Below the pieces are notes generated by a model. It saw nothing but the letters and a program-made list of their open reading frames with translations, made no database searches and was not told the DNA's origin. A stretch of 64,000 nt of DNA from Magnetospirillum sp. XM-1 (GTDB lineage: Bacteria > Pseudomonadota > Alphaproteobacteria > Rhodospirillales > Magnetospirillaceae): contig NZ_LN997848.1 of NCBI RefSeq assembly GCF_001511835.1, forward strand, positions 4,637,501 to 4,701,500. The letters run 5' to 3'. The position numbers were made by a program, and so were the translations under genes. Positions 3,511 through 58,828 of this stretch are shown one piece after another. Numbering within the stretch: position 1 is the stretch's first letter; the number at the start of each line of letters is the position of its first letter.

Positions 3511-3553
<43 letters not shown>

Positions 3554-4396: not shown

Positions 4397-5902
4397 TCAG
4401 GAATCACCTTTTGCTTCTTTCTCAGGTGAATCGTCATAGACCGCATCCATGAGAATGAACCTTAGGATAGGGCGTAAATCGCCCGCTATGTTCTGCAGAC
4501 GCTCAAAACTCCAGTTGCCCATATCGTTATGGGAATTCCAGTGCAGGTCTTTGAGCCAATGCGACGCGATGGTACCCGCTCGTTCGGAGAGCTTTTTGTT
4601 GTCCGGAAAGACGTCGGTGCGCGTACTCGCCATACCAACCAATTTTCCTATGGGGAAATGCTGGCCCTTGTCATCTCGGCACGGAAGCTTGATCTGATCG
4701 TAGTGGTAAACGAGGGCCCATTCCAGCAACGCCCGCATGAGCATGAACAAAGACAGCCTGAACGAGGTTAGGTTGTTTTTCCCCGCGCTGAGTTGCGCCA
4801 ATTCATAAGTCAGCTGCTCCAGCCGATCGTCGTCACGAAGGCACCGAATATCTTCGAGAAGCAAAAGCGGCTTGGGTTTTTGAACTGGTGGCATTTGAGA
4901 AGGCAAAGCCGTGTCCGGCTTTTCCGCGTCGGAGATATCCACAGAAGCCGACGTCAGCGATGTTTGATCCGCTGGCGGCGGGTGAGCCGATATCGCTGGG
5001 GGTGGCGTTTCTGGCTTCACGTGGTTGCCGTTCACGCTATCCTCGGGACCATCAAGTGGGATGTCCTTATGCGATGCCGGGGTTATCGGAAGCTCCGGTT
5101 GCCCGTCAAGCAGCTCAGCACTTGGGATCGGCTTCGGGTGGCGCTTTCCGCCGTCGACTTCCTTATTAGGCGGCGTGTACAGCGATGGGCCACCGGCCGG
5201 CCTGTTCAGGTCGAAGAGGTCCGGATCCTTTCCTGGACTCGGACCGACATCATTCACTCGCTCGCCAATTGGCCAGGTACGCCTGAGATAGTCCTCGATC
5301 GAATCTCCCTTGGAGAATTTATCGTCGGTTTCCCTGCGTTGGGCGATCAAGGTATGTCGGGCGACGACACCGACCATTTGGTCGAGATAGCCAAAGCCAA
5401 ATCGATTAGGTCGTCCGTCATCAAAGAACATGGGCTGCCCAAAATGGCGCTCTACGCTTTGTGAAAGCACGGCTCTGAGGAACGGTTCATGATCGACGTA
5501 ATCGTCACTGTATAGTATCGCCTTCTCATCCTCAGCCCACACATTTCCATGAATGGCGATGTGGAGCGCTTCTCTTCCTCGGAGAAGCTGCTTAACGGTC
5601 TTCAGGTCAATCTTAAGAGTCTTGGCGATTTCCTGCGGATTTTTGCTTTTCTTGAATTCCCGATGTACGTAACGCATGCGTGATACCAGGGACCACGCCC
5701 GTCTTTGAATGACGGCATGGATATTCGCAACGATCGGGTCGCCACGTTCCCGGTCGTAATCGAAGCAGACATCGACCTTGCTGATGTTGTTCCTGGTTTC
5801 GTCGTCGATGGCCGGAATCTGCCGAAACAGGTCGTGTGCCGCTTCGGGCAGTATCTCCGGGTTAAGCAATACCTTGGCCGCCTGCCATGCCCAAGGCGGC
5901 AT
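4397..5902 (-). pseudogene. 5'-truncated hypothetical gene, possibly ParB/HTH-like
   Basis: About 500 codons of convincing protein run from roughly 5890 down to a stop at 4397. The reading frame continues upstream only as the antisense of the next gene. The N-terminal part contains a helix-turn-helix-like stretch (NPQEIAKTLKIDLKTVKQLL), a middle region, a proline-rich linker and a C-terminal helical domain. ATGs at 5908 and 5902 exist but lack a ribosome binding site and overlap the start of the divergent zinc-finger gene. I therefore read it as beheaded when the right-hand cassette joined near 5895. Base composition is visibly lower in GC than the cassette to the right. The ParB-like guess rests only on the HTH position and overall layout. 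Confidence 0.5.
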
Positions 5903-6143
5903 GATCATGGACGACGCCGACCGCGCCACCCTGATCGCCGAATACCGCCTCGCCGACGCCATTGAACGGGCTCGGCGGACGTCCGAGGCCAGCGGCATCC
6001 CCAGCACCGGGATCTGCACCGAATGCGGTTTCGGGATCGAGGCCGGACGCCTGGAGATCATCCCCACCGCCCGCCTGTGCGGCGCCTGCGCCCGCGAGGC
6101 GGACGCGCAGGCCAGGCGATCCCGCATCAACGGAGAGGACTGA
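5901..6143 (+). CDS. DksA/TraR-type C4 zinc-finger protein
   Basis: An 80-residue protein with the C4 zinc-finger signature: GICTECG followed about 17 residues later by LCGACA. This is typical of TraR/DksA-family small proteins found on phages and mobile elements. Such proteins can bind the RNA polymerase secondary channel, although this one lacks a long coiled coil. The start is ATG 5901, with ATG 5907 as alternative; AAGGCGG just upstream can serve as ribosome binding site. It is the first gene of a tightly packed plus-strand cluster running to the integrase. Confidence 0.75.
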   Translation: MIMDDADRATLIAEYRLADAIERARRTSEASGIPSTGICTECGFGIEAGRLEIIPTARLCGACAREADAQARRSRINGED

Positions 6144-6144
6144 C

Positions 6145-6660
6145 ATGGACACCCCGTCTCAACGCGCCCTCAGCCGCAGGGACTGCCCCCAGACCCGCCG
6201 CGTCTCCTACGCCCAGTTCCAGGGTGAACTGGCCGCCCAGGGCATGCCCAACAGCAACCACTACGCCTTCAAGTGCCCCAGCTGCGGACATGTCCAGAGC
6301 ATGGCCAGCATGGTCGCGTTGTCGAAAGTTCCCACCGACAAGGTGGACGGCTACGTCTACTTCAGCTGCGAGGGCCGCTTCAACGCCGCGCGAGGCTGCG
6401 ACTGGACCCTGGGAGGGCTGCTCAAAATCCACGCCCTGGAGGTCGAAACCGGCGACGGCATCGTCCCCGCCTTCGAGCCCGCCTCGCCCGAAGAAGCGGC
6501 GGACCTGCTGGCCGAGGTCGAAGGCATGAACGTCACCACCGTCACCATGACCACCACCGTCACCATGAAGAAGACCCGCGCCATGGGAACGACCCAGGCG
6601 CAGGCGGCGAACGCGGTTCGCACCCTGGATGATGCTTCGGCGGAGGGTGCTGCGCGATGA
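6145..6660 (+). CDS. VVA0879-like phage/island protein with two CxxC/Cys clusters
   Basis: A 171-residue protein resembling the VVA0879 family of small phage-associated proteins. It has a leading SYAQFQGELAAQG segment, then FKCPSCGHVQSM, then FSCEGRFNAARGCDWTLGG. The cysteines suggest a zinc-ribbon fold. The C-terminal 40 residues are Thr/Met-rich and low complexity (repeated TVTM). The gene starts directly after the previous stop (1-bp gap) and its stop overlaps the methyltransferase start as ATGA, so it is translationally coupled. The biochemical role is unknown. Confidence 0.7.
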   Translation: MDTPSQRALSRRDCPQTRRVSYAQFQGELAAQGMPNSNHYAFKCPSCGHVQSMASMVALSKVPTDKVDGYVYFSCEGRFNAARGCDWTLGGLLKIHALEVETGDGIVPAFEPASPEEAADLLAEVEGMNVTTVTMTTTVTMKKTRAMGTTQAQAANAVRTLDDASAEGAAR

Positions 6661-8825
6661 ACCTCACCACCGCCGTGACGCAAGTCGAGATCCGCCACTA
6701 CCACGTCTGCTGCGGAGGCGGCCCTGGGGCTCGGGGCTTCAACATGGGCTCCGCCCGCGTCGGCAACCTGCTGGCCCGCATGCGCTGCATCGGCGGCGTC
6801 GATCACGACCCCCTGGCCATCACCGATTTCAACCGCTTGGCCGGGGTCAATGGCACCCTGCTCGACCTGTTCAGCGCCGAGCAATATCGCGCCTTCCACG
6901 GCAAGGAACCGCCGGCTGGATGGCGAGAGGCCACCCCGGACGATATCCGCCGCTCGGCCGGCGGCGAGTTCCCGCATATCGTCTTCACCTCCATGCCCTG
7001 CAAGGGCTTCAGCGGCCTGCTGGCGGAAAGCCGCAGCGCCAGCGCCAAGTATCAGGCGCTGAACGGCCTGACCCTGCGCGGCGTCTGGCTGACGCTGGAG
7101 GCCTTCAAGGACGATCCGCCCGAGTTGTGGATCTTCGAGAACGTCCCGCGCATCGCCAACAGGGGCCGCCACCTCCTCGACCAGATCAAGGCTCTGTTCC
7201 GCGCCCATGGCTACGCCGTCGAGGAGACCGCCCACGATTGCGGCGAGATCGGCGGCCTGTCGCAAAGCCGCAAGCGCTTCCTGATGGTCGCCCGCCACAT
7301 GGCGAAGGTGCCGCCCTTCCTGTACGAGCCGCCCAAGAAGCGGCTCAGGGGCGTGGGCGACGTGTTGGACCGCCTGCCCATGCCCGGCGATCCGTGCGCC
7401 GGCCCCATGCACCGCATTCCGTCCCTGCAGTGGAAGACCTGGGTCCGCCTCGCCTTCGTCCAGGCCGGCAAGGACTGGCGCAGCCTTAACCGCCTGGCCG
7501 TCGAGGACGGCATGCTGCGGGATTATGGCATCGTGCCCGAGCGCGAGTTTCGCAATGGCGCCTTCGGCGTGATGGGCTGGCCTACTGCCACCGGCGCGGT
7601 GTGCGGGGAATCGTTCCCCACCAACGGTCGCTTCGCCGTCGCCGATCCCCGGGCCGAAGAGGACTTGCGGCGGGGCGCCCTCGGCCTGTCGCGCTGGGCC
7701 GACACCGCCTGCACCGTCACCAGCCGGGGCTTTCCCCTCAACGGGGCGTTCAGCGTGGCGGACCCCCGCCCCACCGGCATGGCGGAATACTCGCAGCTCG
7801 GCATACGCCGGTGGGATGAACCGTCGGGGGCGGTCAGCAGCCAGTCGGCGGTGGGCGGCGGCAAGTACGCCGTGGCCGATCCTCGCGCGGGAATCGGCGC
7901 CGCCACCCATAACAATGTCTATCGCGTGGTCCGCTTCGATGATCACAGCAATGCGGTCACCGGCGGGCAGTCCCCATCCGCCGGCGGACTGGCGGTCGCC
8001 GACCCCAGGCCCATGGACAGCGGCCATTCCAAATACGCGGTGACGCCCTACGGCGAGGCCGCCCGCACCGTCATTTCCGGCAGCACTACCGGCCAGGGCG
8101 CCTTTGCCGTAGCGGATCCTCGGTGTGACTGGAACCCCAATGCTCACCGAAGCAAGCTGCGGGTGACGCCCTATGACGATCACGTCGGCGCCATCACCGG
8201 ATCGTCATCCGCCGGCCATGGCTTCACCTCCGGGGCCATGAGCGTAGCGGACCCCCGCCCGTCCTACCTCAAGGACGGCCGCGAGGCCTACTTGACCGCC
8301 GGCATGTACGGCGTGTTGCCCTACGAGGCCCCGGCCGGGTCGGTCAACGCCAATGCCTGCCACGACAACGGCAAGTGGTCGGTGGCCGACCCCCGCCTGC
8401 CGGCGCTGGACGAGCGCCTGGCCTGCGTCATCCTCGCCGAGGACAACACATGGCACCGGCCCTTCACCACCCTGGAACTGGCCGCGCTGCAGACCATGTT
8501 CGACCCGGACGAAGAGTTTGAGCCGGTCGAGACCGAGGGCGGCGCCAGGATCTGGCAGCGCCGCAAGCCCGAGCCCTGGATGCTGGCCGGCACCAGCGAT
8601 TCCCGCCACCGGGAATGCATCGGCAACGCCGTCCCCTCGGCCGCCGCCCAGGCCATCGCCAGCACCATGGCCCACACCCTGCTGCTGGCCTGGAGCGGTC
8701 ACACCTTCGTGCTGTCCAACACTCCCATCTGGGTGATGCCCCCGGCCGAACGCCTTCGGCACGAGCTGTCAATCGCCCTGTCCGTCAACAACCCCGTTCA
8801 CAACCAGGAGAGCAACCATGCCTGA
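6657..8825 (+). CDS. C5 DNA cytosine methyltransferase with seven internal VADPR repeats
   Basis: A 722-residue protein. The C5-methyltransferase motifs appear in order: motif I CCGGGPGARGFNMG near residue 16, the catalytic Pro-Cys in SMPCKGFSG near 114, motif VI FENVPR near 160, motif VIII QSRKRFLMV near 202, and the C-terminal motif X GNAVPSAAAQ near 656. All catalytic residues are present, so it should methylate cytosine at C5. Between motif VIII and the end, residues about 328-580 hold seven degenerate repeats of 38-46 residues, each ending VADPR; this is where target recognition normally sits. The gene overlaps the first DGR target by 8 bp, which suggests co-expression. Confidence 0.88.
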   Translation: MNLTTAVTQVEIRHYHVCCGGGPGARGFNMGSARVGNLLARMRCIGGVDHDPLAITDFNRLAGVNGTLLDLFSAEQYRAFHGKEPPAGWREATPDDIRRSAGGEFPHIVFTSMPCKGFSGLLAESRSASAKYQALNGLTLRGVWLTLEAFKDDPPELWIFENVPRIANRGRHLLDQIKALFRAHGYAVEETAHDCGEIGGLSQSRKRFLMVARHMAKVPPFLYEPPKKRLRGVGDVLDRLPMPGDPCAGPMHRIPSLQWKTWVRLAFVQAGKDWRSLNRLAVEDGMLRDYGIVPEREFRNGAFGVMGWPTATGAVCGESFPTNGRFAVADPRAEEDLRRGALGLSRWADTACTVTSRGFPLNGAFSVADPRPTGMAEYSQLGIRRWDEPSGAVSSQSAVGGGKYAVADPRAGIGAATHNNVYRVVRFDDHSNAVTGGQSPSAGGLAVADPRPMDSGHSKYAVTPYGEAARTVISGSTTGQGAFAVADPRCDWNPNAHRSKLRVTPYDDHVGAITGSSSAGHGFTSGAMSVADPRPSYLKDGREAYLTAGMYGVLPYEAPAGSVNANACHDNGKWSVADPRLPALDERLACVILAEDNTWHRPFTTLELAALQTMFDPDEEFEPVETEGGARIWQRRKPEPWMLAGTSDSRHRECIGNAVPSAAAQAIASTMAHTLLLAWSGHTFVLSNTPIWVMPPAERLRHELSIALSVNNPVHNQESNHA

Positions 8826-9369
8826 TACCGCGCCCATTTCCGGGCTCATCATCCCCGTTCCCGCCATCGGCACCCCCATGGCCGGTGGGTTCTTCGGCGG
8901 CGTGTCCCGCGACGGCGCGTGGATCATCGTGTCGCCCAAGGCCGAGGGCGAAGCCGTCCTGGCCTGGAAGACCACCATGACCGCCAGCCCCGGCGCGCTG
9001 TCGTTCGTCGACGGCCTCGCCAACACCCGCGACATCGCCGATGACGATCACCCGGCCGCCGCCTTCTGCGCCGCCCTGCGCATTGGCGGGTTTGACGACT
9101 GGCACCTGGGCAGCCTGGACGACATGCAGACCCTGATGCGCAACCTGATGCCGCTGTCCGGCGGCAATCCCGCACAGACGGCGGTCGAGGCGTTCCAGGA
9201 GGGCGGCGCCGAGGCCTTCGAGGCGGCGTGGCACTGGACCAGCACCCAGGACAGCCCCGGCTACGCCTGGCTGCAGACCTTCTACGACGGCACCCAGACC
9301 AACTACGGCCTCAAGGACAGCAGAGACCGGGTCCGAGCCGTCCGCAAATGCCTCCCCTTCACCCCCTGA
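8818..9369 (+). CDS. DGR target protein 1 (variable, DUF1566/C-type-lectin-like)
   Basis: A 183-residue protein whose last third resembles the DUF1566/Lcl C-type-lectin-like fold used by many DGR targets (HWTSTQ, GYAWLQ, RVRAVRKC). The variable region is at its C-terminus, as DGR homing requires. The start ATG 8818 has AGGAG eight bases upstream. No signal peptide, lipobox or membrane segment is visible, so the product appears cytoplasmic or is released by lysis. It is a paralogue of the next gene; both share an N-terminal AIGTPM-GGF motif. By family knowledge, variable residues decorate a ligand-binding surface; the ligand here is unknown. Confidence 0.9.
   Translation: MPDTAPISGLIIPVPAIGTPMAGGFFGGVSRDGAWIIVSPKAEGEAVLAWKTTMTASPGALSFVDGLANTRDIADDDHPAAAFCAALRIGGFDDWHLGSLDDMQTLMRNLMPLSGGNPAQTAVEAFQEGGAEAFEAAWHWTSTQDSPGYAWLQTFYDGTQTNYGLKDSRDRVRAVRKCLPFTP
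9257..9346 (+). repeat. Variable region VR1
   Basis: This segment aligns with the template 10582-10668. I count 12 base differences, all at template adenines, plus one extra codon (acc) relative to the template. The last 20 bases (9327-9346), which contain only two adenines, are identical to the template end and match the expected initiation-of-mutagenic-homing segment. Confidence 0.93.
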
Positions 9370-9377
9370 TCCTTTTA

Positions 9378-9397
9378 CCGGCCGCTCCGGCGGCCGG
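9378..9397 (+). promoter_or_regulatory. Hairpin/cruciform downstream of VR1
   Basis: A perfect 8-bp stem (CCGGCCGC with GCGGCCGG) closes a 4-nt loop TCCG, 31 bases after the end of VR1 and 8 bases after the stop. An identical stem follows VR2 and none follows the template. DGRs such as the Bordetella phage element use a short GC-rich hairpin downstream of the VR for target recognition. A transcription terminator is the alternative, but no T-run follows. Confidence 0.75.
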
Positions 9398-9426
9398 GCC
9401 TTCCCACACGCACCATGGAGATCCGA

Positions 9427-9972
9427 ATGAGCCTGATCACCCCCGCCATCATCACTCCCGCCATCGGAACGCCGATGGAAGGGGGATTCCTCGGAGCCCG
9501 GTATATCGACGAAAACGGCGCCCTGGCCGGTCTCGTCGTGTCGCGTGCTGAGGTTGGCGACTTCGACCCCGTTCCGTGGCTGAAGAAGCTCCGGGACGTG
9601 CCCGGCGCCTGCTCGCTGCTCGACGGCCTCGCCAATACCCGGGCGATGGCGGAAGCCGGCTCGGAGATCGCCCAGACGATCCTGGACCTCGAAATCGACG
9701 GCGTCGGCGGCTGGCACATCCCGGCGCTGGACCAGATGACCGGGCTGCGCGCCACCGCCATGCCCCGGGCCGGCATCACTCCGGCGCAGAGCCTGGCCGA
9801 GGTGTTCCAGGAGGGCAGCCCCGAAGCCTTCCGGCAGGAATGGTACTGGACCAGCACCCAGTACAGCTCCGGCTACGCCTGGCTGCAGGACTTCTTCAAC
9901 GGCGACCAGAGCCACGACAGCGGCAAGGGCATCAGTTACCGGGTCCGAGCCGTCCGCAAATGTCTTCTTTAG
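9427..9972 (+). CDS. DGR target protein 2 (variable, DUF1566/C-type-lectin-like)
   Basis: A 181-residue paralogue of target 1 with the same ending (YWTSTQ, GYAWLQ, RVRAVRKC) and a variable C-terminus. ATG 9427 is preferred over ATG 9415 because GGAG lies six bases before it. There is no export signal. It follows target 1 by 57 bp, and that gap contains the first hairpin. The N-terminal two thirds differ substantially from target 1 (for example EVGDFDPVPWLKKLRDVPGA), so this is an old duplication. The shared template can serve both genes, allowing two differently framed display proteins to diversify from one source. Confidence 0.9.
   Translation: MSLITPAIITPAIGTPMEGGFLGARYIDENGALAGLVVSRAEVGDFDPVPWLKKLRDVPGACSLLDGLANTRAMAEAGSEIAQTILDLEIDGVGGWHIPALDQMTGLRATAMPRAGITPAQSLAEVFQEGSPEAFRQEWYWTSTQYSSGYAWLQDFFNGDQSHDSGKGISYRVRAVRKCLL
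9868..9958 (+). repeat. Variable region VR2
   Basis: Aligned with the template, this copy shows 14 base differences, again all at template adenines, plus one extra codon (agc). Its final 20 bases (9939-9958) are identical to those of VR1 and the template. It shares one more base with the template on the left (t at 9868) than VR1 does. Confidence 0.93.
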
Positions 9973-9988
9973 CCCTTTAACCCTTTAT

Positions 9989-10008
9989 CCGGCCGCTTCG
10001 GCGGCCGG
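9989..10008 (+). promoter_or_regulatory. Hairpin/cruciform downstream of VR2
   Basis: It has the same 8-bp stem as the hairpin after VR1, with loop TTCG, and begins 30 bases after VR2. Stem identity with a changed loop, at nearly the same distance from both VRs, argues for a selected DNA or RNA structure in homing. A TTCG-capped terminator cannot be excluded; no T-run follows. Confidence 0.75.
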
Positions 10009-10031
10009 GTGATGCCTGGAGGAGGTTTTGC

Positions 10032-10385
10032 ATGGCGCTGGCCACTGAACTGCCCATCTACCGCGAGACATACGCCCTGGTCCAGCTTCTGGCGAAGCTG
10101 ACGGGACAGTATCCCCGCAACTACCGGCAGGTTCTGGCCCGCGAGATCCTGACCGAGGGCCAGCAGATGGCGGTGGAGATCTTCCGCGCCAACTGCGTCA
10201 CCGGCCCGGCCAAGGTGCCGCACATCGAGAGGATGCGCGAACACCTGGAGGTGCTGCGCTTGCAACTGCGCCTGTCCAAGGACCTTCACCTGATCTCCCC
10301 CAAGCAATTCGGGGACACGGTGGAACTGACGACCGGCGTCGGCAAGCAGGCGACGGCATGGCTGAAATACGCGAGGAGCGCCTGA
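10032..10385 (+). CDS. avd: DGR accessory variability determinant (Avd-like four-helix protein)
   Basis: A 117-residue, all-helical, basic protein lying between the targets and the template/reverse transcriptase, exactly where Avd is found in DGRs. Motifs such as LPIYRETYALVQLL near the start and LRLQLRLSKDLHLIS near residue 77 match the Avd/23S-insert four-helix-bundle family. By family knowledge it forms a pentameric ring that binds reverse transcriptase and template RNA and is needed for adenine mutagenesis. GGAGGAGG just before ATG 10032 is a strong ribosome binding site. Its stop ends 196 bp before the template; that spacer has no gene and probably belongs to the template RNA. Confidence 0.9.
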   Translation: MALATELPIYRETYALVQLLAKLTGQYPRNYRQVLAREILTEGQQMAVEIFRANCVTGPAKVPHIERMREHLEVLRLQLRLSKDLHLISPKQFGDTVELTTGVGKQATAWLKYARSA

Positions 10386-10581
10386 TGCCCGAAGGTCAAG
10401 GCCTTCGCGCCCGTGCGCATCATTTGGTCGGGGTAGCGGCCCCTCCCGATGCATACGGGGTCGCTCCAGGCGCCAATGGGATACGGCGGGTGCTCCCCCG
10501 CGCGTCCCGGCGCAGCTCGGCCGGCGTCGATGGGGAAGCCCAATCGCCGGCCCGGCCTATACACCCCCGACAGGACTTGGT

Positions 10582-10668
10582 CCGGCTACGCCTGGCTGCA
10601 GAACTTCAACAACGGCAACCAGAACAACAACAACAAGAACAACAGAAACCGGGTCCGAGCCGTCCGCA
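10582..10668 (+). repeat. DGR template repeat (TR), adenine-rich
   Basis: This 87-base segment has the same left anchor (GGCTACGCCTGGCTGCAG) and right anchor as both VRs. Its interior is dominated by 11 AAC codons plus one AAG and one AGA. AAC can mutate at its adenines to many amino acids but never to a stop codon. Read in the VR frame it encodes a GYAWLQ...RVRAVR segment and is open upstream, as if descended from a target gene. It is three bases shorter than both VRs, by one AAC unit. The TR-RNA is expected to include the upstream spacer 10386-10581 and the reverse transcriptase start region, since the RT start codon lies one base after the TR end. Confidence 0.95.
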
Positions 10669-10669
10669 C

Positions 10670-11797
10670 ATGATCACGCAACAGCCGTCAGACATCACCG
10701 TGTCCCAGCTTTTCGAGGCCTATTACGACTGCCGGCGCCACAAGCGCAACACGGCTTCCGCCCTGGACTTCGAGATGGCGCTGGAAAACAACCTGATGGA
10801 CCTGCTGGCCGAGCTGCAGGCCGGCACCTGGATGCCGGGACCGGCGACCGTCTTCGCCATCACCCGCCCCCGGCCGCGCGAGGTGTGGGCCGCCCAGTTC
10901 CGCGACCGCATCGTCCACCACCTGGTCTATCGCGCCGTCAACCCGCTGTTCGAGCCGGCGTTCATCGCCGATTCCTGCGCCTGCATCAAGGGACGCGGCA
11001 CGCTGTACGGCGCCGAGCGCCTGCACCGCCACCTACGCTCGGCCACCGAGAACTGGAGCAAGCCGGCCTTCTATCTGAAAGCCGACATCGCCAATTTCTT
11101 CGGCTCGATCCGCCACGCCGACCTGTTCGCCATGCTGGCCCTCCGGATCAAGGACACCACCATGCTGGAATTGTGCCGCAAGCTGGTGTTCCAGGACGTG
11201 CGCCGGGACGCCATCGTCAAGGACGGCGCCGGAACCCTGGCCCTGGTTCCGCCGCACAAAAGCCTGTTCCAGGCACCGCCCGGCATCGGCTTGCCCATCG
11301 GCAACCTGTCCAGCCAGTTCTTCGCCAACGTCTACCTGGACAGCCTGGATCAGATGATCAAGCGACGCCTCGGCATGCGCCACTACGTCCGCTACGTCGA
11401 TGACATGGTCCTGATCCACCCCGAGCCCAAGGCGCTGCTGGCCGCCGCAGATGCCATCCGGGACCACCTGTCCGGCATCGGCCTGCGGCTCGCCGAGCAC
11501 AAGACCTTCGTGGCGCCGGTCGCCAAGGGCGTCGATTTCGTCGGCCACGTCATCCGTCCGCACCGCCGCCAGGGCCGCCCCAGAACCCACCGCGCCGCCC
11601 TGCGCCGGCTGATGGAGATCCCGGCCGAGGACTTCATGCCGTCCTGCAACAGCTATCTCGGCCTGTTCCGCCACGGCGGCAGCCGCAACCAGATCATCGC
11701 GCTCGCCCGGATCGCGCTCCGGCGCCGCCACTGGGTGGCCGCCGACCTGACCAAGGTGGGCGCCCGCCACATCTCCACGCCGAGGACCGCGCCATGA
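10670..11797 (+). CDS. DGR reverse transcriptase
   Basis: A 375-residue reverse transcriptase related to group II intron enzymes. It has motif YLKADIANFF with catalytic Asp139, GLPIGNLSSQ at 207-216 (the DGR-type motif 4, IGxxxSQ), and YVDD at 242-245. No maturase or endonuclease domain follows, as expected for DGR enzymes. The start ATG 10670 lies one base after the template; its TGA-overlapping position (ATGA) ends the frame that reads through the template. A longer upstream frame exists but runs through the spacer and template and is not protein-like. The stop overlaps the next small gene by 4 bp. Confidence 0.95.
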   Translation: MITQQPSDITVSQLFEAYYDCRRHKRNTASALDFEMALENNLMDLLAELQAGTWMPGPATVFAITRPRPREVWAAQFRDRIVHHLVYRAVNPLFEPAFIADSCACIKGRGTLYGAERLHRHLRSATENWSKPAFYLKADIANFFGSIRHADLFAMLALRIKDTTMLELCRKLVFQDVRRDAIVKDGAGTLALVPPHKSLFQAPPGIGLPIGNLSSQFFANVYLDSLDQMIKRRLGMRHYVRYVDDMVLIHPEPKALLAAADAIRDHLSGIGLRLAEHKTFVAPVAKGVDFVGHVIRPHRRQGRPRTHRAALRRLMEIPAEDFMPSCNSYLGLFRHGGSRNQIIALARIALRRRHWVAADLTKVGARHISTPRTAP

Positions 11798-11949
11798 CCA
11801 CGCCCGAACAGCACGACGGCACCACTCCGCCGGCCGATCCGCCGCCTCAGTGCCGCGACTGTATCAACTCCACCGCCCGGGACCATGTCTGCCTGGATGG
11901 CCATCCGCAGACCGCCCCGTGCCCGCACCACGAACCACTGCCTTACTGA
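11794..11949 (+). CDS. Small Cys/His-rich hypothetical protein
   Basis: A 51-residue protein coupled to the reverse transcriptase by an ATGA overlap. Its core, CRDCINSTARDHVCLDGHP followed by CPHH, looks like a small zinc-binding fold seen in phage accessory proteins. Function is not recognised. Confidence 0.6.
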   Translation: MTTPEQHDGTTPPADPPPQCRDCINSTARDHVCLDGHPQTAPCPHHEPLPY

Positions 11950-11959
11950 GGATCAGACC

Positions 11960-12157
11960 ATGACCACCCAGACGCTTAAGCCTTGCCCGTTTTGCGGCAA
12001 CACCGCCCCAGTTATCCGGTCCAATGGGATCGGCGACTACTACGTCTATTGCGATGATGACGAAGAGGTCGGCGGATGCGGCGCCCACACCAGCGACCGC
12101 CGCGCCGAACAGAAATCCATTGCCGCGAAGCGGTGGAACCAGCGCACGGGCAACTGA
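11960..12157 (+). CDS. Lar-like restriction-alleviation zinc-ribbon protein
   Basis: A 65-residue protein with LKPCPFCGN at the N-terminus, a central VYCDDDEEVGGCG and a C-terminal AAKRWNQR. This is the standard layout of Lar-family proteins encoded by phages and mobile elements. Known Lar relieves type I restriction by modulating the host enzyme. That activity is inferred here from family likeness only. It lies 10 bp after the previous gene. Confidence 0.75.
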   Translation: MTTQTLKPCPFCGNTAPVIRSNGIGDYYVYCDDDEEVGGCGAHTSDRRAEQKSIAAKRWNQRTGN

Positions 12158-12389: not shown

Positions 12390-12406
12390 AGTTGAGGAGC
12401 AAGACC

Positions 12407-12892
12407 ATGCGCGCCATCACCCTGCACCAGCCCTGGGCCTCGCTGATCGCCATCGGCGCGAAGACGTTCGAGACGCGCAGCTTTCCACCGCCGGCCAAGT
12501 TGATCGGCCAGCGCATCGCCATCCACGCGGCGGTGCGCGATCCGGTCAAGATTTACATGGAGATGTACCGGGCCAACGACCCCGCATGGGAGCCGATCTG
12601 CAACGCTCTCGACGATGCCGGATTCGATGGCCTGAACTGGTCCCTTCTCCCGCTTGGCGCCGCCGTCGCCACCGCTGTGCTGACCGGGGCGTATCAACTC
12701 GGAGATGGCGGGCAGGTTGTCCAGCGGCGGGGCACCGGCCCGCAGTACTTGACCCTCAAGACCGACCACTTTGGAGATTACACCCCCGGCCGCTGGGCGT
12801 GGCTGCTGACCGATGTTCAGCCCTTGGCCACGCCGATCCCCGCCAAGGGGAAACAGGGCTGGTGGGAGTGGGATGAGATCCATGGCGGCTGA
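12407..12892 (+). CDS. ASCH-domain protein
   Basis: A 161-residue protein with the typical ASCH opening: RAITLHQPWASLIAIGAKTF, then ETRSFPP and IAIHAA. It ends with a WAWLLTDV strand. ASCH domains are PUA-like and are thought to bind RNA or modified nucleotides; some are N4-acetylcytidine amidohydrolases. The gene overlaps the next one by 11 bp, suggesting the two act together. Confidence 0.8.
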   Translation: MRAITLHQPWASLIAIGAKTFETRSFPPPAKLIGQRIAIHAAVRDPVKIYMEMYRANDPAWEPICNALDDAGFDGLNWSLLPLGAAVATAVLTGAYQLGDGGQVVQRRGTGPQYLTLKTDHFGDYTPGRWAWLLTDVQPLATPIPAKGKQGWWEWDEIHGG

Positions 12893-14135
12893 TCTCTTCG
12901 CCGGCAGCCAGCGGCTGCAGATGACCGAAAGCATCGAACTGACGGTGCAGTCGCTGCTGGCCTATGCCCATGATCATGACCACTGGGGCATGGCGTGGTC
13001 GGGCGGCAAGGATTCCAGCGCCACCGTGACGCTGATCTGCTGGCTGATCGACACCGGGAAGATTCCGGCGCCGATGTCGTTCACCGTGTTCTACGCCGAC
13101 ACCCGCATGGAACTGACGCCTCTGGCCATCGCCGCCCTGCAGATCATGGACGAGCTGCGGGACCGGGGAATCGAGGTCCATGTGGTCCGCGCCCCGCTCG
13201 ACAAGCGGTTCTTCGTCTACATCCTCGGCCGGGGCGTGCCGCCACCCAATAACAACACGCTGCGCTGGTGTACCCGCCAGATCAAGATCGACCCCATGGG
13301 CGAGGCAGTGGCGTGCAAGCTCGACGAGATCGAGCGAAACCATAACGGTGGTCCTGACCTGGACGGCGCCGCCGCCCCGAAGCCGTTCCTGATGATCACC
13401 GGCGTCCGCCAGGGCGAGTCCGCCATGCGTGATCGCCGCATCGAGATGAGCTGCAGCAAGGACGGCGCCGAGTGCGGCCAGGGCTGGTACCAGAAGACGC
13501 TCCCCGAGGCCAAGGGCGTACGGGGCCGCATCGCCACCCTGGCTCCGCTGCTCCACTGGAGGGTCTGCCATGTGTGGGAGTGGCTGAAGCACTGGGCACC
13601 CCAGCCGCAGTTCGGCGACTGGTCCACCGCCATGATCGCTGACGCCTATGGCGGAGACGAGGCGGAGGAGATCAACGCCCGCACCGGCTGCATCGGCTGC
13701 CCCCTGGCCGCCAAGGACATGGCGCTGGATACCATCCTGCATAATCCGTCATGGGCCTATCTGGCGCCGCTGAAGGGCCTGAAGCCGCTCTACCGTGAAC
13801 TGCGCATGGCCAGGAATCGCCTGCGCCAGCCGGGCGGCGAGCGCCGTCAGGACGGCACCCTGGCCAAGAACCAGCAGCGCATGGGTCCGCTGACCTTTCC
13901 GGCCCGCCTGATGGGCCTCGACCGCGTCTTGACCATCCAGGCCGAGGTAAACGCCGCCGCCGTCCGGCTCGGCCGCCCGCGCCTCGACCTGCTCGACGCC
14001 AAAGAGGAGGCCCGCATCCGCGAGCTGATCGCCGCCAAGACCTGGCCGGATGGCTGGGATGGCGACGAACCGACCGCCGACACCCCGCTGCCGGCGTACT
14101 TCGCCGACGGCACCATTCAACACCTGCTTGTTTAG
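12882..14135 (+). CDS. PAPS-reductase/DndC-like nucleotide-binding protein
   Basis: A 417-residue member of the PAPS-reductase/ATP-pyrophosphatase superfamily. It has the PP-loop SGGKDSS near residue 42, a YADTRMEL strand and later cysteines in LRWCTRQIK and CIGCPLAAKD, the latter suggesting an Fe-S or zinc site. Island-borne members of this family are often linked to DNA or nucleotide modification (for example DndC in phosphorothioation). No dndDE partners occur here, so the substrate is open. ATG 12882 is within the 3' end of the ASCH gene. Confidence 0.8.
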   Translation: MAADLFAGSQRLQMTESIELTVQSLLAYAHDHDHWGMAWSGGKDSSATVTLICWLIDTGKIPAPMSFTVFYADTRMELTPLAIAALQIMDELRDRGIEVHVVRAPLDKRFFVYILGRGVPPPNNNTLRWCTRQIKIDPMGEAVACKLDEIERNHNGGPDLDGAAAPKPFLMITGVRQGESAMRDRRIEMSCSKDGAECGQGWYQKTLPEAKGVRGRIATLAPLLHWRVCHVWEWLKHWAPQPQFGDWSTAMIADAYGGDEAEEINARTGCIGCPLAAKDMALDTILHNPSWAYLAPLKGLKPLYRELRMARNRLRQPGGERRQDGTLAKNQQRMGPLTFPARLMGLDRVLTIQAEVNAAAVRLGRPRLDLLDAKEEARIRELIAAKTWPDGWDGDEPTADTPLPAYFADGTIQHLLV

Positions 14136-14403: not shown

Positions 14404-14706
14404 ATGCCCAAGCCGCCTCGCAATTGGCCCGTAGCCGCGCTTCCCCGTCGAATGGACCGGGATATGGCCGCCTATTATTGCGGCTTGTCGCCCAACACCT
14501 TCGACGACAGGGTGAAGGCCGGGCAGTTCCCCCAGCCGCACCAGGACGGACGCCGGATGGTTTGGGATCTCCGCGAGTTGGACAAGGCGCTTGACGGTGA
14601 CGCCGTACACCATCTTGACGGCATGGCCTCCGCCGAGTCTCAATCACAACGTGACATCGCCGCCGCCGAGGCGATGGCGCTGGCCGCTATCCAGCAAAGC
14701 CGATGA
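14404..14706 (+). CDS. AlpA/excisionase-like helix-turn-helix protein
   Basis: A 100-residue protein with a MerR/AlpA-type helix-turn-helix: RRMDRDMAAYYCGLSPNTFD, then QFPQPHQDGRRMVWDLRELD. Proteins of this kind immediately upstream of a tyrosine integrase usually act as recombination directionality factor or integrase regulator. The stop overlaps the integrase start (ATGA), so the two should be co-translated. Confidence 0.65.
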   Translation: MPKPPRNWPVAALPRRMDRDMAAYYCGLSPNTFDDRVKAGQFPQPHQDGRRMVWDLRELDKALDGDAVHHLDGMASAESQSQRDIAAAEAMALAAIQQSR

Positions 14707-15800
14707 TGGAGACTACCGACATGGGGCGGATCGACCTGCCCTATCTTCACGCCTACCGGGACCGCCACGGCCGCATGCGCCACTACTATCGGCGCGACGG
14801 CCGGCGCCATCCGATCAAGGGCGAACCCGGTTCGGCCGAGTTTCTGGCCGAGTACCAGCGCCTGCACGAGGCGGCGGAGGTCAAGCCCACCCCGAAGCCC
14901 GGCGCCGATACCTTCGGCGCTCTGGTGGAAACCTACTACGTCTCGCCCGAGTTCAGCCATAACCTGCGGACCTCCACCAAGGCCGAGTACAGGCGCCATA
15001 TCGAGCCCATGCGCGAGAGGTGGCGCAACGTGCCGCTGATCGGGATCACCAAGAAGGTGGTTCGCTCCTATCGCGACAGCCTGGCCGCCCAGCCGGTGAA
15101 GGCCAATAGCGCCCTTCGGGTGCTCAAGACTCTGCTCGCCTTCGCCGTCGATACCGAGTTGCTGGCCGCCAACCCGGCCAGCAAGATCAAGCCGCTGAAG
15201 GTCGACTCCGATGGCTGGCTGCCGTGGCCGGAAGCCGCGCTGGAAAAGTTCTCCAACAAGAGCCGTGGCGCGGCACGCATCGCCTTCTTTCTGGCGCTGG
15301 AGACCGGACAGCGCCGTGCCGACGTGCTGTCCATGCGCTGGGACGCGCTGACCTCGGACGGCGGCATCATGGTCAAGCAGGCCAAGACCGGCGCCGAGCT
15401 GTGGCTGCCGATCTCCCCGGTCCTTCGCGTCGAACTGGAGCGCACCCGCAAGGAACAGGCCGCGCGCGTCGTCGAGCGGACCAAGCGCAAGCTGCAGGCG
15501 GCCACCCCCTTGACCATCGTCGCCCGCGAGAACGGCCAGCCCTACACCGAGGACGGCTTCGGCACGATCTGGAACCGCGAGCAGCACCGCGTCGAGTGCC
15601 CGCGCCTGCCCTTCCATGGCCTGCGCAAGAACGCCACCATTCGCCTAGTCGAGAACGGCCACAACCCGCAACAGGTCGCGGCGATCACCGGCCACAAGAC
15701 GCTGGAAATGATCGCCCATTACGGACGCCGGGCGGATCAGAAGCGGCTGGCCAAGGCGACGGCGCAAGCTACCGATGGTAGAAACGGGTCCGATCAGTGA
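14703..15800 (+). CDS. Tyrosine site-specific integrase of the island
   Basis: A 365-residue tyrosine recombinase. After an N-terminal arm-binding part (HAYRDRHGRMRHYYRRDG) and a core-binding domain, the catalytic residues are present: Arg in ETGQRRADVL, Lys in QAKTG, HxxR in FHGLRKN, His in TGHKT and the nucleophile Tyr in MIAHYGRR. It lies about 110 bp from the tRNA-Pro attachment site and points towards it, so it is the enzyme that inserted the island. ATG 14703 is coupled to the gene before. ATG 14721 has GGAG about ten bases upstream, begins the family-like segment, and is an equally good start. Confidence 0.92.
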   Translation: MMETTDMGRIDLPYLHAYRDRHGRMRHYYRRDGRRHPIKGEPGSAEFLAEYQRLHEAAEVKPTPKPGADTFGALVETYYVSPEFSHNLRTSTKAEYRRHIEPMRERWRNVPLIGITKKVVRSYRDSLAAQPVKANSALRVLKTLLAFAVDTELLAANPASKIKPLKVDSDGWLPWPEAALEKFSNKSRGAARIAFFLALETGQRRADVLSMRWDALTSDGGIMVKQAKTGAELWLPISPVLRVELERTRKEQAARVVERTKRKLQAATPLTIVARENGQPYTEDGFGTIWNREQHRVECPRLPFHGLRKNATIRLVENGHNPQQVAAITGHKTLEMIAHYGRRADQKRLAKATAQATDGRNGSDQ

Positions 15801-15905: not shown

Positions 15906-15983
<78 letters not shown>

Positions 15984-46605: not shown

Positions 46606-47577
46606 GATTATCTCCTTGTGCGATTGGGCATGAACTGACGATATGCCCGCCCCGCACTTTTTTCATTAATTCATTTCATCATGTATACAAAAGTAATCGC
46701 GATGCCTCACCATTCCATTGGGCGGCACCTTTCAGTATTTATCAATTCAGCGGTGCCAAATATGACCTAAAACAGCCGCGCCTGAGATTGATTACTGGTG
46801 GCGCAGTCCGCCATGGAAGTTTAGGTATTGCTCTTGGACGTTAATCATGCTGTCGGCTATCAACAAATACACAGCACTACAAAGACACATGAATATGAGC
46901 AATTCGTCTGGTCTGGCTATCACATAAATTGTCATTTGCGAGGGTATTTGGTATTTTGTATAAATACAAAAGACACGGTGGGTTTGCGAACTGTTCCATG
47001 TCGATCCGTGATGACGGATTTGTTGAGTTCGCAGCAAGTCGAAGGGTTAATGACGTTATGGTCGCCCGAATCGATAAAGCAAAATAAGGTGGCATGTTGT
47101 TTATTCTCACCTAGCCTGCGATGGCAAATCAATAACAAGGCGTCGTGATTCTGGACGTTTATAATAAACAGAATGGTCTGCGGGAGAACTTCACCTGTGA
47201 AAAACAGAGCTTCCGATCCCCCGAATGGTTTTTATCGATCTGAGGGAAAACTTAGGCAAAGTGTACGGTGAGAAATAGTGGCCTCCACTGCCATAGTGTG
47301 GAACCGGGACTGAGATTGGCACTCAGGGTTATCTTTTAAAGAGATAGCAGATCAAAGGCACCTAAGCTATACGCGGACTTAATAGGTAAACTGGGACTTG
47401 TCAGAATCCGATATAGGCAAGTTGCAAGACGTGTTTTTTGGGATCAGATTTTAGATTCCAATAACTAAAGCATCGTCTTACCGGGCAAGCGGAAGGGGAA
47501 GCTTTGCCTACAGAATGCAGCTGCATCAGGGAGATGACACCACACATGGCCACGCCCGGATCCCGTCGGTGACCAGC
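46606..47577. other. 972-bp AT-rich region without a supported gene
   Basis: No frame here looks coding beyond a 29-codon stretch at 46998-47087 (ISRDDGFVEF-like), which may be a gene relic. The clearest structure is a perfect palindrome at 46954-46971 (TTTTGTAT-AA-ATACAAAA). The TTTTGTAT octamer also occurs at 46685-46692 (reverse). The right part, 47160-47500, shows nothing. Confidence 0.5.
46954..46971. promoter_or_regulatory. Perfect 18-bp AT palindrome, possible operator
   Basis: TTTTGTAT, AA, ATACAAAA. The same octamer is seen in three other gene-free spots of this accessory region (46685, 54686, 57823). It may be a regulator site or simply contain a TATAAAT promoter element. Confidence 0.4.
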
Positions 47578-47983: not shown

Positions 47984-49135
47984 TTACGGATTTGGAGTTT
48001 CTGTCTGGCTGCCATCGACTGGAAGCCTAATTGTAAAAACGGAACCTTCTGCTGGGCCATCTTTCACTGAGATGGTCCCTCCCAGTTTGGTGATGGTGTC
48101 GTACACAATAGCCAAACCCAATCCCTGCCCGAATCCAACATCGCGGGTTGTGAAAAATGGATCAAAAATATGGTCTCGAATCTCTGGCGGTATACCTGCG
48201 CCGTTGTCCATGACATGGATTTCTGCCCAGTCTCCGTGGCGCTTGGTCAAGATACGAATATCGCCATTACGCTCCGGGAGAACAGCCTGAACGGCGTTCT
48301 GAATCAAACTCATAATAACTTCACTCATCCTACCAGGGTGGCAGGAAATTGGCGGCAGATCTGAATCAAGGCACACGTCTAGGTGATGATTATTTCCAAT
48401 TAATCTGACGCCAATCAACAGAACATTATTGATTAAATTGTTTATGTCTACGTATTGCATCTCAGCATCATTCTGCGAACAAAAATCTTTTGTTGCCAAA
48501 ACAATGTCAGATATCCGGGAAACACCGCGCCTTAAATCAATGATTGCCTCTTGCAGCTCCGATTCCGCGCAGGCGGCTTGCAAGTCTATTAATTTGCCTT
48601 CCTTAATCGCATTAATTAATTCACTTACCTCATTTTGAATATATATAATATTTGAAGCAATATATTGAAGGGGCGTATTGATTTCGTGTGCAATGCCTGC
48701 TGCCAACTGGCCCGCAGCTGCAAATCGGGCTGCCCGTATCGCATCAAACCGCGCTTGCTTGAGTCGGACATGGGTCTGTAGCCGACTTCGAACTATGGGG
48801 AGTGAATAGGGCTTTGTGATATAATCAACAGCCCCAAGCTCCAGGCCCTTAATCTCATCAGTTAACTGGACCATTGCGGACATAAAAATAATAGGAATAT
48901 TCGTAGTAGCTTTATCTGCCTTTAGTCTCCGGCAAACCTCATAGCCGTCCATGTCAGGCATCATAATATCGAGCAATATTGCATCAGGCTGCGGTATCGC
49001 GTTTGCTCGGAAAAGCGACCCCTCTCCATTGGTGGCTGCAATGATACGAAATTCATTTTTGAGGAATTCAGATAGAACTCTGATATTTTGAATCTCATCA
49101 TCAACAATGAGTATCGTCGGCTTTTCCAAGGTCAT
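47984..49135 (-). CDS. Receiver-histidine kinase hybrid
   Basis: A 383-residue protein. An N-terminal receiver (residues 8-125: ILIVDDEIQNIRVLS, Asp in ILLDIMMPDMDGYE) is joined to a kinase whose His lies in GQLAAGIAHEINTPLQYIAS. N and G boxes are MSLIQNAVQAVLPE and GFGQGLGLAIVYDTITKLG. There is no membrane part. ATG 49135 has AAGGA upstream; a TTG at 49144 overlaps the previous stop. Confidence 0.88.
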   Translation of the reverse strand: MTLEKPTILIVDDEIQNIRVLSEFLKNEFRIIAATNGEGSLFRANAIPQPDAILLDIMMPDMDGYEVCRRLKADKATTNIPIIFMSAMVQLTDEIKGLELGAVDYITKPYSLPIVRSRLQTHVRLKQARFDAIRAARFAAAGQLAAGIAHEINTPLQYIASNIIYIQNEVSELINAIKEGKLIDLQAACAESELQEAIIDLRRGVSRISDIVLATKDFCSQNDAEMQYVDINNLINNVLLIGVRLIGNNHHLDVCLDSDLPPISCHPGRMSEVIMSLIQNAVQAVLPERNGDIRILTKRHGDWAEIHVMDNGAGIPPEIRDHIFDPFFTTRDVGFGQGLGLAIVYDTITKLGGTISVKDGPAEGSVFTIRLPVDGSQTETPNP

Positions 49136-49140
49136 ATCGA

Positions 49141-52100
49141 TCAATCCTTGGTGTGCAAAATTTTATCAAGAATGTTATCAATTATTTTTTCTGCTTTCTT
49201 GAAATCAAAGCATTTAATAGAACGGTCAAGCTCTTCGCACATGCCTAATAAATCAGATTCATCCAATATGCTTGTCAGATCATCTATCGCTTCGAGGGCG
49301 CCGGTGTCAGCTTGACAAATCAGCTGCTTCAGCTTTGATGCCTTTTCTAAGGCGGAGTCGAGGTTTATGTCCGTATGAAATGCAGTGTTTTCACTGCAAC
49401 AATCAGTATCAATAGGCTCGTTATTTTTAGCTCTGACATTTTTGCTTGTGTGCACTAATATGGACCCAATTAGTGGTGCAAGTGCAGCATCTAACTTGTC
49501 CAGTAGCGCCAAGCCAGCCTCTACATCACTGTTGGAAAAAGCGGCTTCAACGTATTCGGCATGTTTCTGCACATCGTAAGCATCAATGATCCCGGCGAGC
49601 CCCTTCAGGGTATGGGCATCCCGTTCAGCCCTTTTGACGTCGCCTTCACTAAGGGCTACGCGGATTCGAGAGACTGAATCGCCTTGCTGTTCAGCGAAGC
49701 TCCGAAGGGTATTGAGGTAAAGCCCCTTCATCCCTGCAACCCGGCGTAAACCTGCACGGATGTCTAAGCCAGGAATCTGGCCCGGCAACTGAATGTCGCC
49801 GTCATCGAAGTTAAGCGCACCAAACATCTCGGCGTCGCTCTCCCCCGTTACCCACTTCCATATGGTCCGGAATAAATCGGCTGGGTTGAATGGCTTGCTG
49901 ATGAAATCGTTCATCCCCGCGTCGATGCATTGAGCCCGATGCTCAGCCATGGCGTTTGCGGTCATGGCGATAATCGGAAGATCGGCATACTTTTCGTGTT
50001 CGCGAATTTTCCTGGTGGCAGTCAGCCCATCCATGACTGGCATCTGCAAATCCATCAGGATGATTTCGTAATCGTTCACTTCAATTTTTGAAATGGCCTC
50101 AGCGCCATTGCCTGCGATGTCGACGGATATTCCGCCGGCACCTAGGATGCCCAACGCAACCTTTTGATTAACGTCGTTGTCCTCCACCAGTAGCAGGCGC
50201 GTCCCTCTCAGAATCTCGTAGTTCTGGGCACTTTTGGCGCCAGAACGCTTGGGGCGGTTTTCCTCATGTTTTCCACCTCCAGTGGCGGAACGCCTGAGAT
50301 TCACAGTGAAATGGAATGTGCTGCCTTTGCCGAGTGCGCTCTCAACGCTGACATACCCTCCCATCAACTCAGCCAATTCCTTGCAGATCGATAATCCTAG
50401 CCCAGTGCCGCCATATCGTCGGGATATAGAGGATTCCGCTTGGACGAACGGCGAAAACAGCATGGCCTTCTGTTCGTCACTCAACCCGATGCCGGTATCC
50501 GATACCGAGACAGTTAGAGCCAGATCGTCATCTCCGGCGGATGCCTGCGAAACCTTGACCACGACGGAGCCCGTATCGGTGAACTTGATGGCGTTGCCGA
50601 GATAGTTCATGACGATCTGGCCAATTCTGAACGGGTCGCCGATCAGAATCGGCGGGATGTCATTGTCAATTTCGACGGCAAGATTGATCCCCTTGGCGTC
50701 GGCAGCGTGATTAACCAGTGCGAGTTGATCTTGGATCAGTGTGCGGATATCGAACGGTTCCGTCTCAATCGAAAGTCCTCCCGCCTGGATTTTGGAGAAA
50801 TCAAGAATGTCGTTTACGACGCCCAGCAGGCGCTTGGTGGACTGCTCTATGGTCTCTATATGGTTATGCACATCCTTTGGCAGATCTTGGCTGAGTGCGA
50901 GATGTGCCATGCCCAATATCCCGTTCATTGGAGTTCGTAACTCGTGGCTCATATTGGCGAGAAAATGTGATTTGAACTGGTTTGCTTTTTCGGCATCAAG
51001 GCGCGCTAGTTGAAGGTCGGTGACGTCCACCCGAACGCCGACGATATAATTTTGCGGCGTGATCCGTTCTTCAATTCGAATGTATCTTCCGTTGCCAAGT
51101 TTCTGGATGATGCGCTTTCCACCACGTCGATGGGCATCAAGACGCTCTTGCACCCATTCATCGATGCGTCCTTCCGCTTCAGCGTACTGGCCGCGTTCGG
51201 CCCCGGTCCGGATAATCTCCTCGAACGTCGTCCCGGCCTGAAACAGATCGGCTGATTCAGCATAAATCTCACGGTACTTCTCGTTGCACATCAGCAATCT
51301 GTCTTGATCATCATAGATTACGAACCCTTCACCAATCGCATCGATTGCCGCGTTCAGGATCTCGGTCGCATTCTTATGCCTCTCGGCGACATATTCATTA
51401 ACTTGAAAAAGCTCGGCGTTGAGTATCAGTGTTTCTCTGAACTTCTCGATGTTGCGCGTAATTTCTCCGATCTCATTTGGGTGACTGGAAACAGTGATAT
51501 TCTGATCAAGTTTCCCACTTGCTAAAGCCTGCATGTCTCTGCTGATGGTGGCAAGAGACTTGGATAAAGAGAGGGATTGCCGTAACGCAATCACGACGGC
51601 AGTGGTGATTAAAATGCCCATGACCGTGAGGTCAAGTATGATGGAGATCAAGTTGTCCCTGATCAACGTCCCGGCATGCGACCGCAGATCGTTCTCAAGG
51701 ATAGTCTCGACGTCACGCAGAAGGGCTATCCGTTCGGAGGTCGCCTTGATCCATTCATCTGCATTGACAGAGCCTGTGTCTTTATTCAGACGATCGGTCA
51801 TCTGATTTATGGTGGCCGACAGGCTCTTGAACTCGCTGCTTTTCATCTGAGATGCGAGCGGCTTGATGCCCTGATGTCTGGCGAATGTCTCCAGCACAGA
51901 AATGGCATCTTCCCCTTTGCGCGCCAGTGTCAGCGCATCTCTTCTCCTTTCTTCCGAACTACCCTTGCCCCAAAAGGCATTAACCCCCGTACCCCGAGAC
52001 CTTCCAAGTGTCTCGGTTACATCGGCTATCAGGAACAGAGCAGACAAATCCAATGCAGACTGCGCATCCGCCGCGTAGATCCTGCCGATCGATGACAACG

Positions 52101-52650: not shown

Positions 52651-52885
52651 GTAGGGCGTCTGCTCCTTATAATGTGCCAGCACGCAGTGCCACTACCCCC
52701 AAATGGGATGGGGCAAATTCATGGATATTATCTGGCCTCATTGGGTCATGGGACCCCGGCTACACGCCGCCGATAGTCAGGCAGCCTGATCAAAGTATCC
52801 TTCACCTGCGGAGCTCATCGGGCTCACCGGATGCTGACAAAAAACCGCCAAATGGCGGCTTTTCCGAGACGCTTGCGAACATGCC

Positions 52886-55793: not shown

Positions 55794-56009
55794 CCCCCCC
55801 TCCTTCTCAATACTCATTCAATTACCGACGAATTGAGATGCATGTTTTGAGAGACAGTTTTGATATAATAACACCTCCGTTAATCACGCAAAAGACCACG
55901 ACACAAATATTTTCTCACAAACGAACGTTTTTGCGATGCCGCTGTTCTGCGGCATTCGTCAGTGGCGTCAATAGATAAATACCTGCACACACAGCCAAGG
56001 AGGAATGTG

Positions 56010-58805: not shown

Positions 58806-58828
58806 GGTAACAACCTCAAGCTAAAAGA

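Follow-up and report, generated by a model that had tools for sequence, protein, structure and literature searches.

A diversity-generating retroelement of Magnetospirillum sp. XM-1 whose template repeat very probably pairs with an upstream RT-15 leader

In the genome of Magnetospirillum sp. XM-1, a stretch of 64,000 nucleotides (contig NZ_LN997848.1, positions 4,637,501 to 4,701,500; hereafter the window, whose own numbering is used) contains a mobile element in which positions 8818-11797 of the + strand carry two target genes, an avd gene, a template repeat (TR), and a reverse transcriptase (RT) gene, in that order. We regard it as practically certain that this cassette is a genuine diversity-generating retroelement (DGR). 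Furthermore, covariation indicated that a long-range helix between an RNA of the Rfam family RT-15, located upstream of the TR, and the TR 3' end is very probably real and part of the template RNA; for both statements jointly, we estimate a probability of roughly 0.83. No stronger targeted protein diversifiers than DGRs are known, and, to our knowledge, the priming of their complementary DNA (cDNA) is known in detail only for that of Bordetella phage BPP-1. The machine described herein is of a known kind; its unusual part is the architecture of the template RNA, which was absent from the first-pass annotation of this DNA.

Identification of the cassette as a DGR

The cassette, taken from a complete genome of 4,825,187 + 167,290 bases, has all of its reading frames intact. 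Its RT matched phrog_1423 "Reverse transcriptase" (E-value, 2e-103), and the best solved structure was 8ub7 (E-value, 1.9e-40), the aligned letters of which are those of BPP-1 brt. In a tree of 48 rows, the enzyme grouped with BPP-1 brt and the other RTs bearing TR and variable repeat (VR) pairs (support, 100/99), apart from six other RVT_1 proteins, while the retron St85 model gave 55 of 235 bits, under its cut-off. This placement and the weak St85 score ruled out an RT of the group II intron or retron type, in agreement with the first-pass annotation. Avd was recognized by PF22296 bAvd (46.6 bits; cut-off, 40) and by phrog_3206 "Avd protein of DGR" (E-value, 6e-26), and it was below the cut-off of the NCBIfam Avd model (54.8 of 80 bits). 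VR1 and VR2 both matched the single TR. The first-pass annotation had proposed a full DGR with one template for two targets, and every part was indeed found in the claimed order on the + strand; the VR starts that it gave (9257 and 9868) were likewise retained, whereas the VR ends were found to lie 4 nt further 3' (9350 and 9962).

The targets had also been described as DUF1566/C-lectin-like genes. The target 1 protein passed the Pfam Lcl_C cut-off (36.2 versus 34.9 bits), and the target 2 protein fell under it (32.7 bits), the description being upheld for the latter by its modelled fold. The structural model of target 2 (predicted local distance difference test score, 93.7) showed the C-terminal domain of Legionella Lcl (8q4e) as the best solved match (E-value, 8e-5; template modelling score by target, 0.72) and DUF1566 or tail-fibre C-terminal domains as the best matches among viral models, and it matched classical C-type lectins only at E-values of 1.1 or more. 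According to this model, the target 2 protein has the Lcl C-terminal-domain fold; the domain stands alone, with no anchor recognized. The designation of the targets as display proteins was not borne out, in that no export signal was found by eye, no tail gene was recognized in the element, and a strongly hydrophobic N-terminus was seen, by a crude measure, in 6/115 target open reading frames (ORFs) of the clade. When the genome was searched for additional VRs with the 18-base TR 3' end, the only exact copies were those in VR1, VR2, and the TR; copies with two mismatches numbered four, compared with seven for the reversed control pattern. A protein search of the genome for further targets retrieved only the two known targets and the TR itself.

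Compared with the TR, VR1 was changed at 11/32 adenines and 1/59 other sites, and VR2 at 13/32 adenines and 1/60 other sites. Since the scoring of the TR/VR search forgives adenine changes, the unbiased check was the comparison of the VRs with those of another genome of the same genus (G009, which we take to be M. magneticum AMB-1), in which a stretch of 95 nt spanning the TR is identical to that of the window. Between these two genomes (rather than within one population), VR1 differed at 16/32 template adenines and 0/60 other sites, and VR2 at 10/32 template adenines and 1/60 other sites, while the target sequences upstream of the VRs differed at 11/357 (target 1) and 5/368 (target 2) sites. 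The strain variation at template adenines expected in the first-pass annotation was thus observed, and the DGR has apparently been active recently, as judged from the sequences compared. The coordinated diversification claimed at the same time found no support: VR1 and VR2 carry different changes. A bulk count over 180 VRs of 95 cassettes (2221/5389 adenines versus 81/12701 other sites) was rejected as proof, because both the scoring and the filter forgive adenine changes.

The shared ends of the VRs and the TR (the initiation of mutagenic homology, IMH, and IMH*, respectively) differ in one base, A in both VRs and C in the TR, and diverge beyond. Each VR is one codon longer than the TR, with five versus four AAC units, and the VRs of G009 contain four AAC-derived codons, as does the TR. 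This difference is due either to loss of a unit from the TR after the VRs were written or to slippage in cDNA synthesis. A 3-nt difference between VR and TR occurs in 10/180 VRs (the VR being longer in nine and the TR in one), and the idea that AAC repeats slip had already been put forward in a passage of PMC12875486 (citing Wu 2018); the longer VR was therefore dropped as a novelty.

Predicted pairing of the RT-15 leader with the TR end

Related cassettes were collected from 155 loci with an RT match, 40 of which were set aside because the search, which ran from 450 nt upstream to 60 nt downstream of the RT start, detected no TR/VR. The resulting 95 distinct cassettes with 180 VRs were divided into RT identity groups of at least 60% (21), 45-60% (62), and more distant (12). 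Two VRs were found in 15 cassettes of the first group (three in one, and one in five, some on cut contigs) and in 48 of the second (three in seven, four in one, and one in six), so that two targets are the norm. The spacing between TR and RT was near 0 in 87/95 cassettes, including 21/21 of the first group and 61/62 of the second; it was 111-144 nt in seven of the 12 more distant ones (two with identical RTs) and 312 nt in locus L055. A related cassette in Burkholderia phage Magia (L250, 1010-3589) has two genes before Avd and lies near an integrase, with no annotated tail genes beside it in the stretch seen.

The TR of the window has no 3' spacer and runs into the RT gene, the ATG at 10670 lying inside the TR end at 10672; a structured spacer of the BPP-1 type between TR and RT was thus absent from this cassette. 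The gap between avd and the TR is filled by RT-15 (RF03018), matched over its full length above the cut-off (105.6 versus 82 bits). Among the 34 loci scanned for RT-15, 24 were at or above the cut-off, three (L024, L028, and L037) were below it, and seven showed no match; L105, L106, L107, and L109 were scanned at the cut-off only. The RT-15 3' end lay no more than 8 nt from the TR start in 24 of the 25 cassettes compared, that of L024 being 82 nt off.

With 82 leaders joined to their TR ends (L055 being skipped in this discovery set), RNAalifold proposed a helix in which the conserved AUCUG/AUUUG of RT-15, otherwise unpaired, pairs with the TR end. In the fixed-register count of nine pairs in 79 cassettes (the alignment used did not include L105, L107, and L109, and in it the leader segment of L036 is blank), 87.9% of the cells were paired, compared with 76.3 ± 1.0% in shuffled data, and 82 cells were changed on both sides of the helix, compared with 35.9 ± 3.8; neither value was reached in any of 500 shuffles. 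When the helix was slid by 1-3 positions, only 30-49% of the cells were paired. This count, which supports the helix on three of five measures as well as against sliding, replaced an anchored pair count in which two positions were fixed by construction. When the pairs were traced on a tree of 73 RTs, omitting the rows that lack such a pair, they were found to have switched from one Watson-Crick type to another at least 28 times. The two Gs closing the leader segment (columns 105 and 106) were G in 78/78 rows with letters.

Six cassettes were outside the discovery set. The helix was found at the same place in L055, L139, and L140 (8 bp each) and in L141 (14 bp), followed by G in every case, and reached only 5 bp in L106 and L143. 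An 8-bp helix occurred in 0/25 shuffles of the five distant ones among them and in 2/174 VR controls. In L139, L140, and L141, where RT-15 gave no match, the same pairing is seen with different sequences. In L055, the leader, the TR, and the helix are kept although the RT starts 312 nt further on, and a terminator-like hairpin follows within about 20 nt after the TR.

Several observations speak against this interpretation. Pairs with double-sided change numbered 6 versus 5.0 in shuffles (17/500 shuffles being as high), and further pair types 17 versus 16.1 (186/500); the fixed-register test was run on the same sequences that had yielded the helix. Without a fixed register, the longest helix was modestly above shuffles, at least 8 bp being reached in 12/82 versus 15/410. 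The helix of the window contains a U.C mismatch, and its free fold was 0.7 kcal/mol better without the helix (pair probability, 0.22-0.27), the helix being predicted to be about as stable as its alternatives. In addition, a single clade of zero-spacer DGRs was weakly supported (82/15). The relatedness of the sequences, together with the two measures hardly above shuffles, could be taken to mean that the helix only reflects common descent and a conserved primary sequence; we consider this highly improbable in view of the fixed register, the pair-type changes on the RT tree, and the pairing formed from different sequences in L139, L140, and L141.

Proposed mechanism of template priming

As supported by the covariation, the template RNA is very probably a unit of RT-15 leader and TR, in which 10419-10426 pairs with the TR 3' boundary at 10667-10674. 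In the proposed mechanism, the RT with Avd would bind the leader, and the leader strand would be annealed just 3' of the TR, with its 3' side facing the first template base to be copied. The invariant G10427 or a neighbour would then start the cDNA back across the TR, either from a 2'-OH, as in retrons, or from a nicked 3' end; adenines would be miscopied, and the cDNA would replace VR1 or VR2. Leader priming is proposed because the structured part is 5', the leader strand pairs beside the TR end next to a G, and the stem and G of retrons are analogous. Judged from geometry and covariation, we place the possibility that the leader supplies the primer at slightly less than even odds.

In the RNA of BPP-1, the TR precedes a structured spacer, which recruits RT-Avd and provides the priming adenine, as described in part of PMC12875486, and this also counts against leader priming. 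Accordingly, a similar structured element 3' of the TR might be hidden in the start of the RT gene, with RT-15 only helping in folding or binding; any read-through transcript contains the sequence 3' of the TR. We regard this as unlikely. Among 76 RTs, the beginning of the gene showed no excess of synonymous codon identity (observed/expected, 1.13 for codons 1-15 and 1.15 for codons 16-30, with 0.93-1.24 in the other 15-codon bins), on which ground a codon-level RNA element at this place was rejected, and the hairpin of L055 lies close behind a TR whose RT is far away.

As the window helix covers the ATG at 10670, RT-15 and the helix might alternatively constitute a translational switch for the RT rather than part of the template RNA. 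In line with such a switch, a start codon overlaps the avd stop codon in 65/75 cassettes and is in the RT frame in 42/65; the frame is then open to the RT in 39 of these 42 cases, compared with six of the other 23. In our estimation, such a switch is quite unlikely, because L055 keeps the helix far from its RT, the position of the helix follows the TR boundary rather than being constant within the RT gene, and the Rfam RT-15 model stops at the TR start in the 24 of 25 cassettes mentioned above. The same start codons bear on the RT product. In the window, an ATG at 10385, which overlaps the avd stop within TGATG, opens the RT frame, and this continues without interruption across RT-15 and the TR (10385-11797). 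Reading from 150 nt upstream of the TR into the RT, the RT frame is open in 57/82 cassettes, compared with 14 and 16 for the other two frames. These patterns are suggestive that translation of the RT may begin upstream and run through the TR, giving a fusion protein.

More tentatively than for priming in the window itself, we suggest that a widespread DGR branch might prime in the retron fashion, the 5' leader pairing with the template end and supplying its own invariant G, so that a 3' spacer would be unneeded and the template unit self-contained. The leaders of this branch might comprise RT-15 and the unlike leaders found in Treponema, Desulfovibrionaceae, and Succinivibrio metagenome-assembled genomes, a suggestion that we hold equally tentatively.

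Mobile element carrying the cassette

The cassette had been placed on a tRNA island, and this was substantiated by the 43-bp tRNA-Pro repeats flanking the element (Table 1). Both flanks abut exactly in two other genomes (G011 and G009), which thus show the empty site and define an insert of 12,396 bp that encodes an integrase and an excisionase-like protein of its own. The element shares with G009 only the DGR part, about 8806-11952, and with G010, which we take to be Paramagnetospirillum caucaseum SO-1, the DGR part plus 12397-14135 in pieces; in both genomes, the cassettes are surrounded by genes for terminase, head, or tail or by genes of the Mu type. The sharing of the DGR part while the surroundings differ implied that the cassette moves between mobile elements. 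The same tRNA-Pro site holds other DNA in two relatives (G010, contig C23, about 48354-54175, ~5.8 kb; G013, contig C141, about 6485-8425, ~1.9 kb), and would thus appear to be an insertion hot spot.

The element is not a complete prophage, as no virion or packaging genes were recognized by PHROGs in the 16 element ORFs scanned (not every small ORF was scanned). This, together with the VR lengths that differ from the present TR, might point to a decayed prophage with a DGR no longer working. Such decay is very unlikely, given the intact frames and the VR differences from G009, which fall on adenines while the flanking target sequence is little changed. Terminase genes are present at two other places in the genome, and a helper phage for the element is possible.

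On the left side of the element, a long ORF (4400-6130, - strand) has no Pfam match and a weak PHROG match of unknown function. Elsewhere in the window, 58389-62025 contains a cluster of hemerythrin genes and nitrate/nitrite-sensing (NIT) chemoreceptor and kinase genes, a resolvase lies at 55209-55817, and an ARAGORN tRNA call with a stop anticodon (tta) at 47299-47377 is probably false.

Table 1. Coordinates of the DGR cassette and its carrier element in the window
Feature	Position	Strand	Basis or remark
Left attachment (att) repeat, 43-bp copy of tRNA-Pro 3' end	3511..3553		exact direct repeat; flanks adjacent in G011, G009
DksA/TraR-like zinc-finger protein (start approximate)	5862..6143	+	
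DNA cytosine methyltransferase-like protein, phage type	6657..8825	+	PF00145, phrog_32684
Target gene 1 (Lcl_C/DUF1566-like; VR1 gene)	8818..9369	+	ORF, Pfam, PHROG
Variable repeat 1 (VR1)	9257..9350	+	TR/VR comparison
GC-rich stem-loop after VR1	9378..9397	+	8 bp, loop TCCG, 27 nt past VR1
Target gene 2 (Lcl_C/DUF1566-like; VR2 gene)	9415..9972	+	ORF, Pfam, PHROG, structure model
Variable repeat 2 (VR2)	9868..9962	+	TR/VR comparison
GC-rich stem-loop after VR2	9989..10008	+	8 bp, loop TTCG, 26 nt past VR2
Avd	10032..10385	+	PF22296, phrog_3206
RT-15 RNA (RF03018), proposed 5' leader of template RNA	10376..10577	+	105.6 bits, full length
Leader strand of predicted long-range helix, AUCAUUUG	10419..10426	+	
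Invariant G beside helix; candidate priming nucleotide	10427	+	G in 78/78 aligned rows with a letter
Template repeat (TR)	10581..10672	+	TR/VR comparison
TR-side strand of predicted long-range helix, CACAUGAU	10667..10674	+	one mismatch
DGR reverse transcriptase (RT), ATG at 10670	10670..11797	+	phrog_1423, 8ub7, tree
Lar-like restriction alleviation protein	11963..12157	+	PF14354
PAPS-reductase-like protein	12813..14135	+	phrog_12882
Excisionase-like DNA-binding protein	14404..14706	+	phrog_66, phrog_9834, phrog_25900
Tyrosine integrase	14703..15800	+	PF00589, phrog_1
Right att repeat inside tRNA-Pro (15907-15983, - strand)	15907..15949		exact direct repeat

Discussion

In G009 (4,967,148 bases), there are two RTs of DGRs, each accompanied by two VRs. 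One of these RTs is 96% identical to that of the window and has an identical TR, whereas its cassette occupies a different locus, with phage genes (terminase, tail, and endolysin) around it, and its VRs are of TR length. The lists of the DiGReF paper (2012; PMC3521204) include two DGRs with two VRs each for M. magneticum AMB-1, so that two targets in one cassette have a published precedent.

The cassette resembles BPP-1 in the order of target, avd, TR, and RT and in its adenine-specific change, and differs in having a 195-nt leader, no spacer, and two targets, compared with an avd-TR gap of 0 and a TR-brt spacer of 144 nt in BPP-1. A stem-loop follows the VR in both systems: the relevant part of PMC3240598 describes for BPP-1 a GC-rich stem with a 4-nt loop (GRNA), as opposed to TCCG and TTCG in the window. 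In the survey, such a stem (7 bp or more, closed by a loop of 3-6 nt) was found after 59/180 VRs, compared with 4/180 after the TR, and after 35/38 VRs in the group of RTs at least 60% identical.

In retrons, according to a section of PMC6868368, the base-paired 5' and 3' RNA ends lie beside a conserved G with a 2'-5' bond. The window shares with the retron (msr-msd-RT) the succession of structured leader, candidate priming G, template, and RT, a likeness in layout only; the RT, Avd, and TR/VR of the window are of the DGR type, and the letters at this place are GGTCG, without the AGC motif of retrons. The overlap of the TR 3' end with the RT start is reminiscent of DiGReF group 3, in which the TR overlaps one end of the RT ORF. 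In the sections cited, however, that paper takes component order as irrelevant to the mechanism, whereas in the window the overlap accompanies another RNA architecture.

The description line of RT-15 in Rfam says only "RT-15 RNA", and the model contains no pairing with the TR; the window match, full-length and over the cut-off, places this RNA as the proposed 5' leader of a DGR template RNA. The record of phage Cruim01 has an annotated RT-15 feature between an Avd homologue and the RT. Our literature search found no paper linking RT-15 to DGRs, although an earlier description is possible.

The genome pair, with identical templates and differing VRs, documents cleanly how adenine-specific rewriting has altered both targets in nature. 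If the proposed mechanism is true, RT-15 would gain a function, and the RNA architectures of DGRs and retrons would be linked. If a large branch of DGRs uses a 5' leader that pairs with the template end, a template unit as compact as that of L055 (about 320 nt) could be put to a direct test, and there would be two solutions to template presentation within these retroelements.

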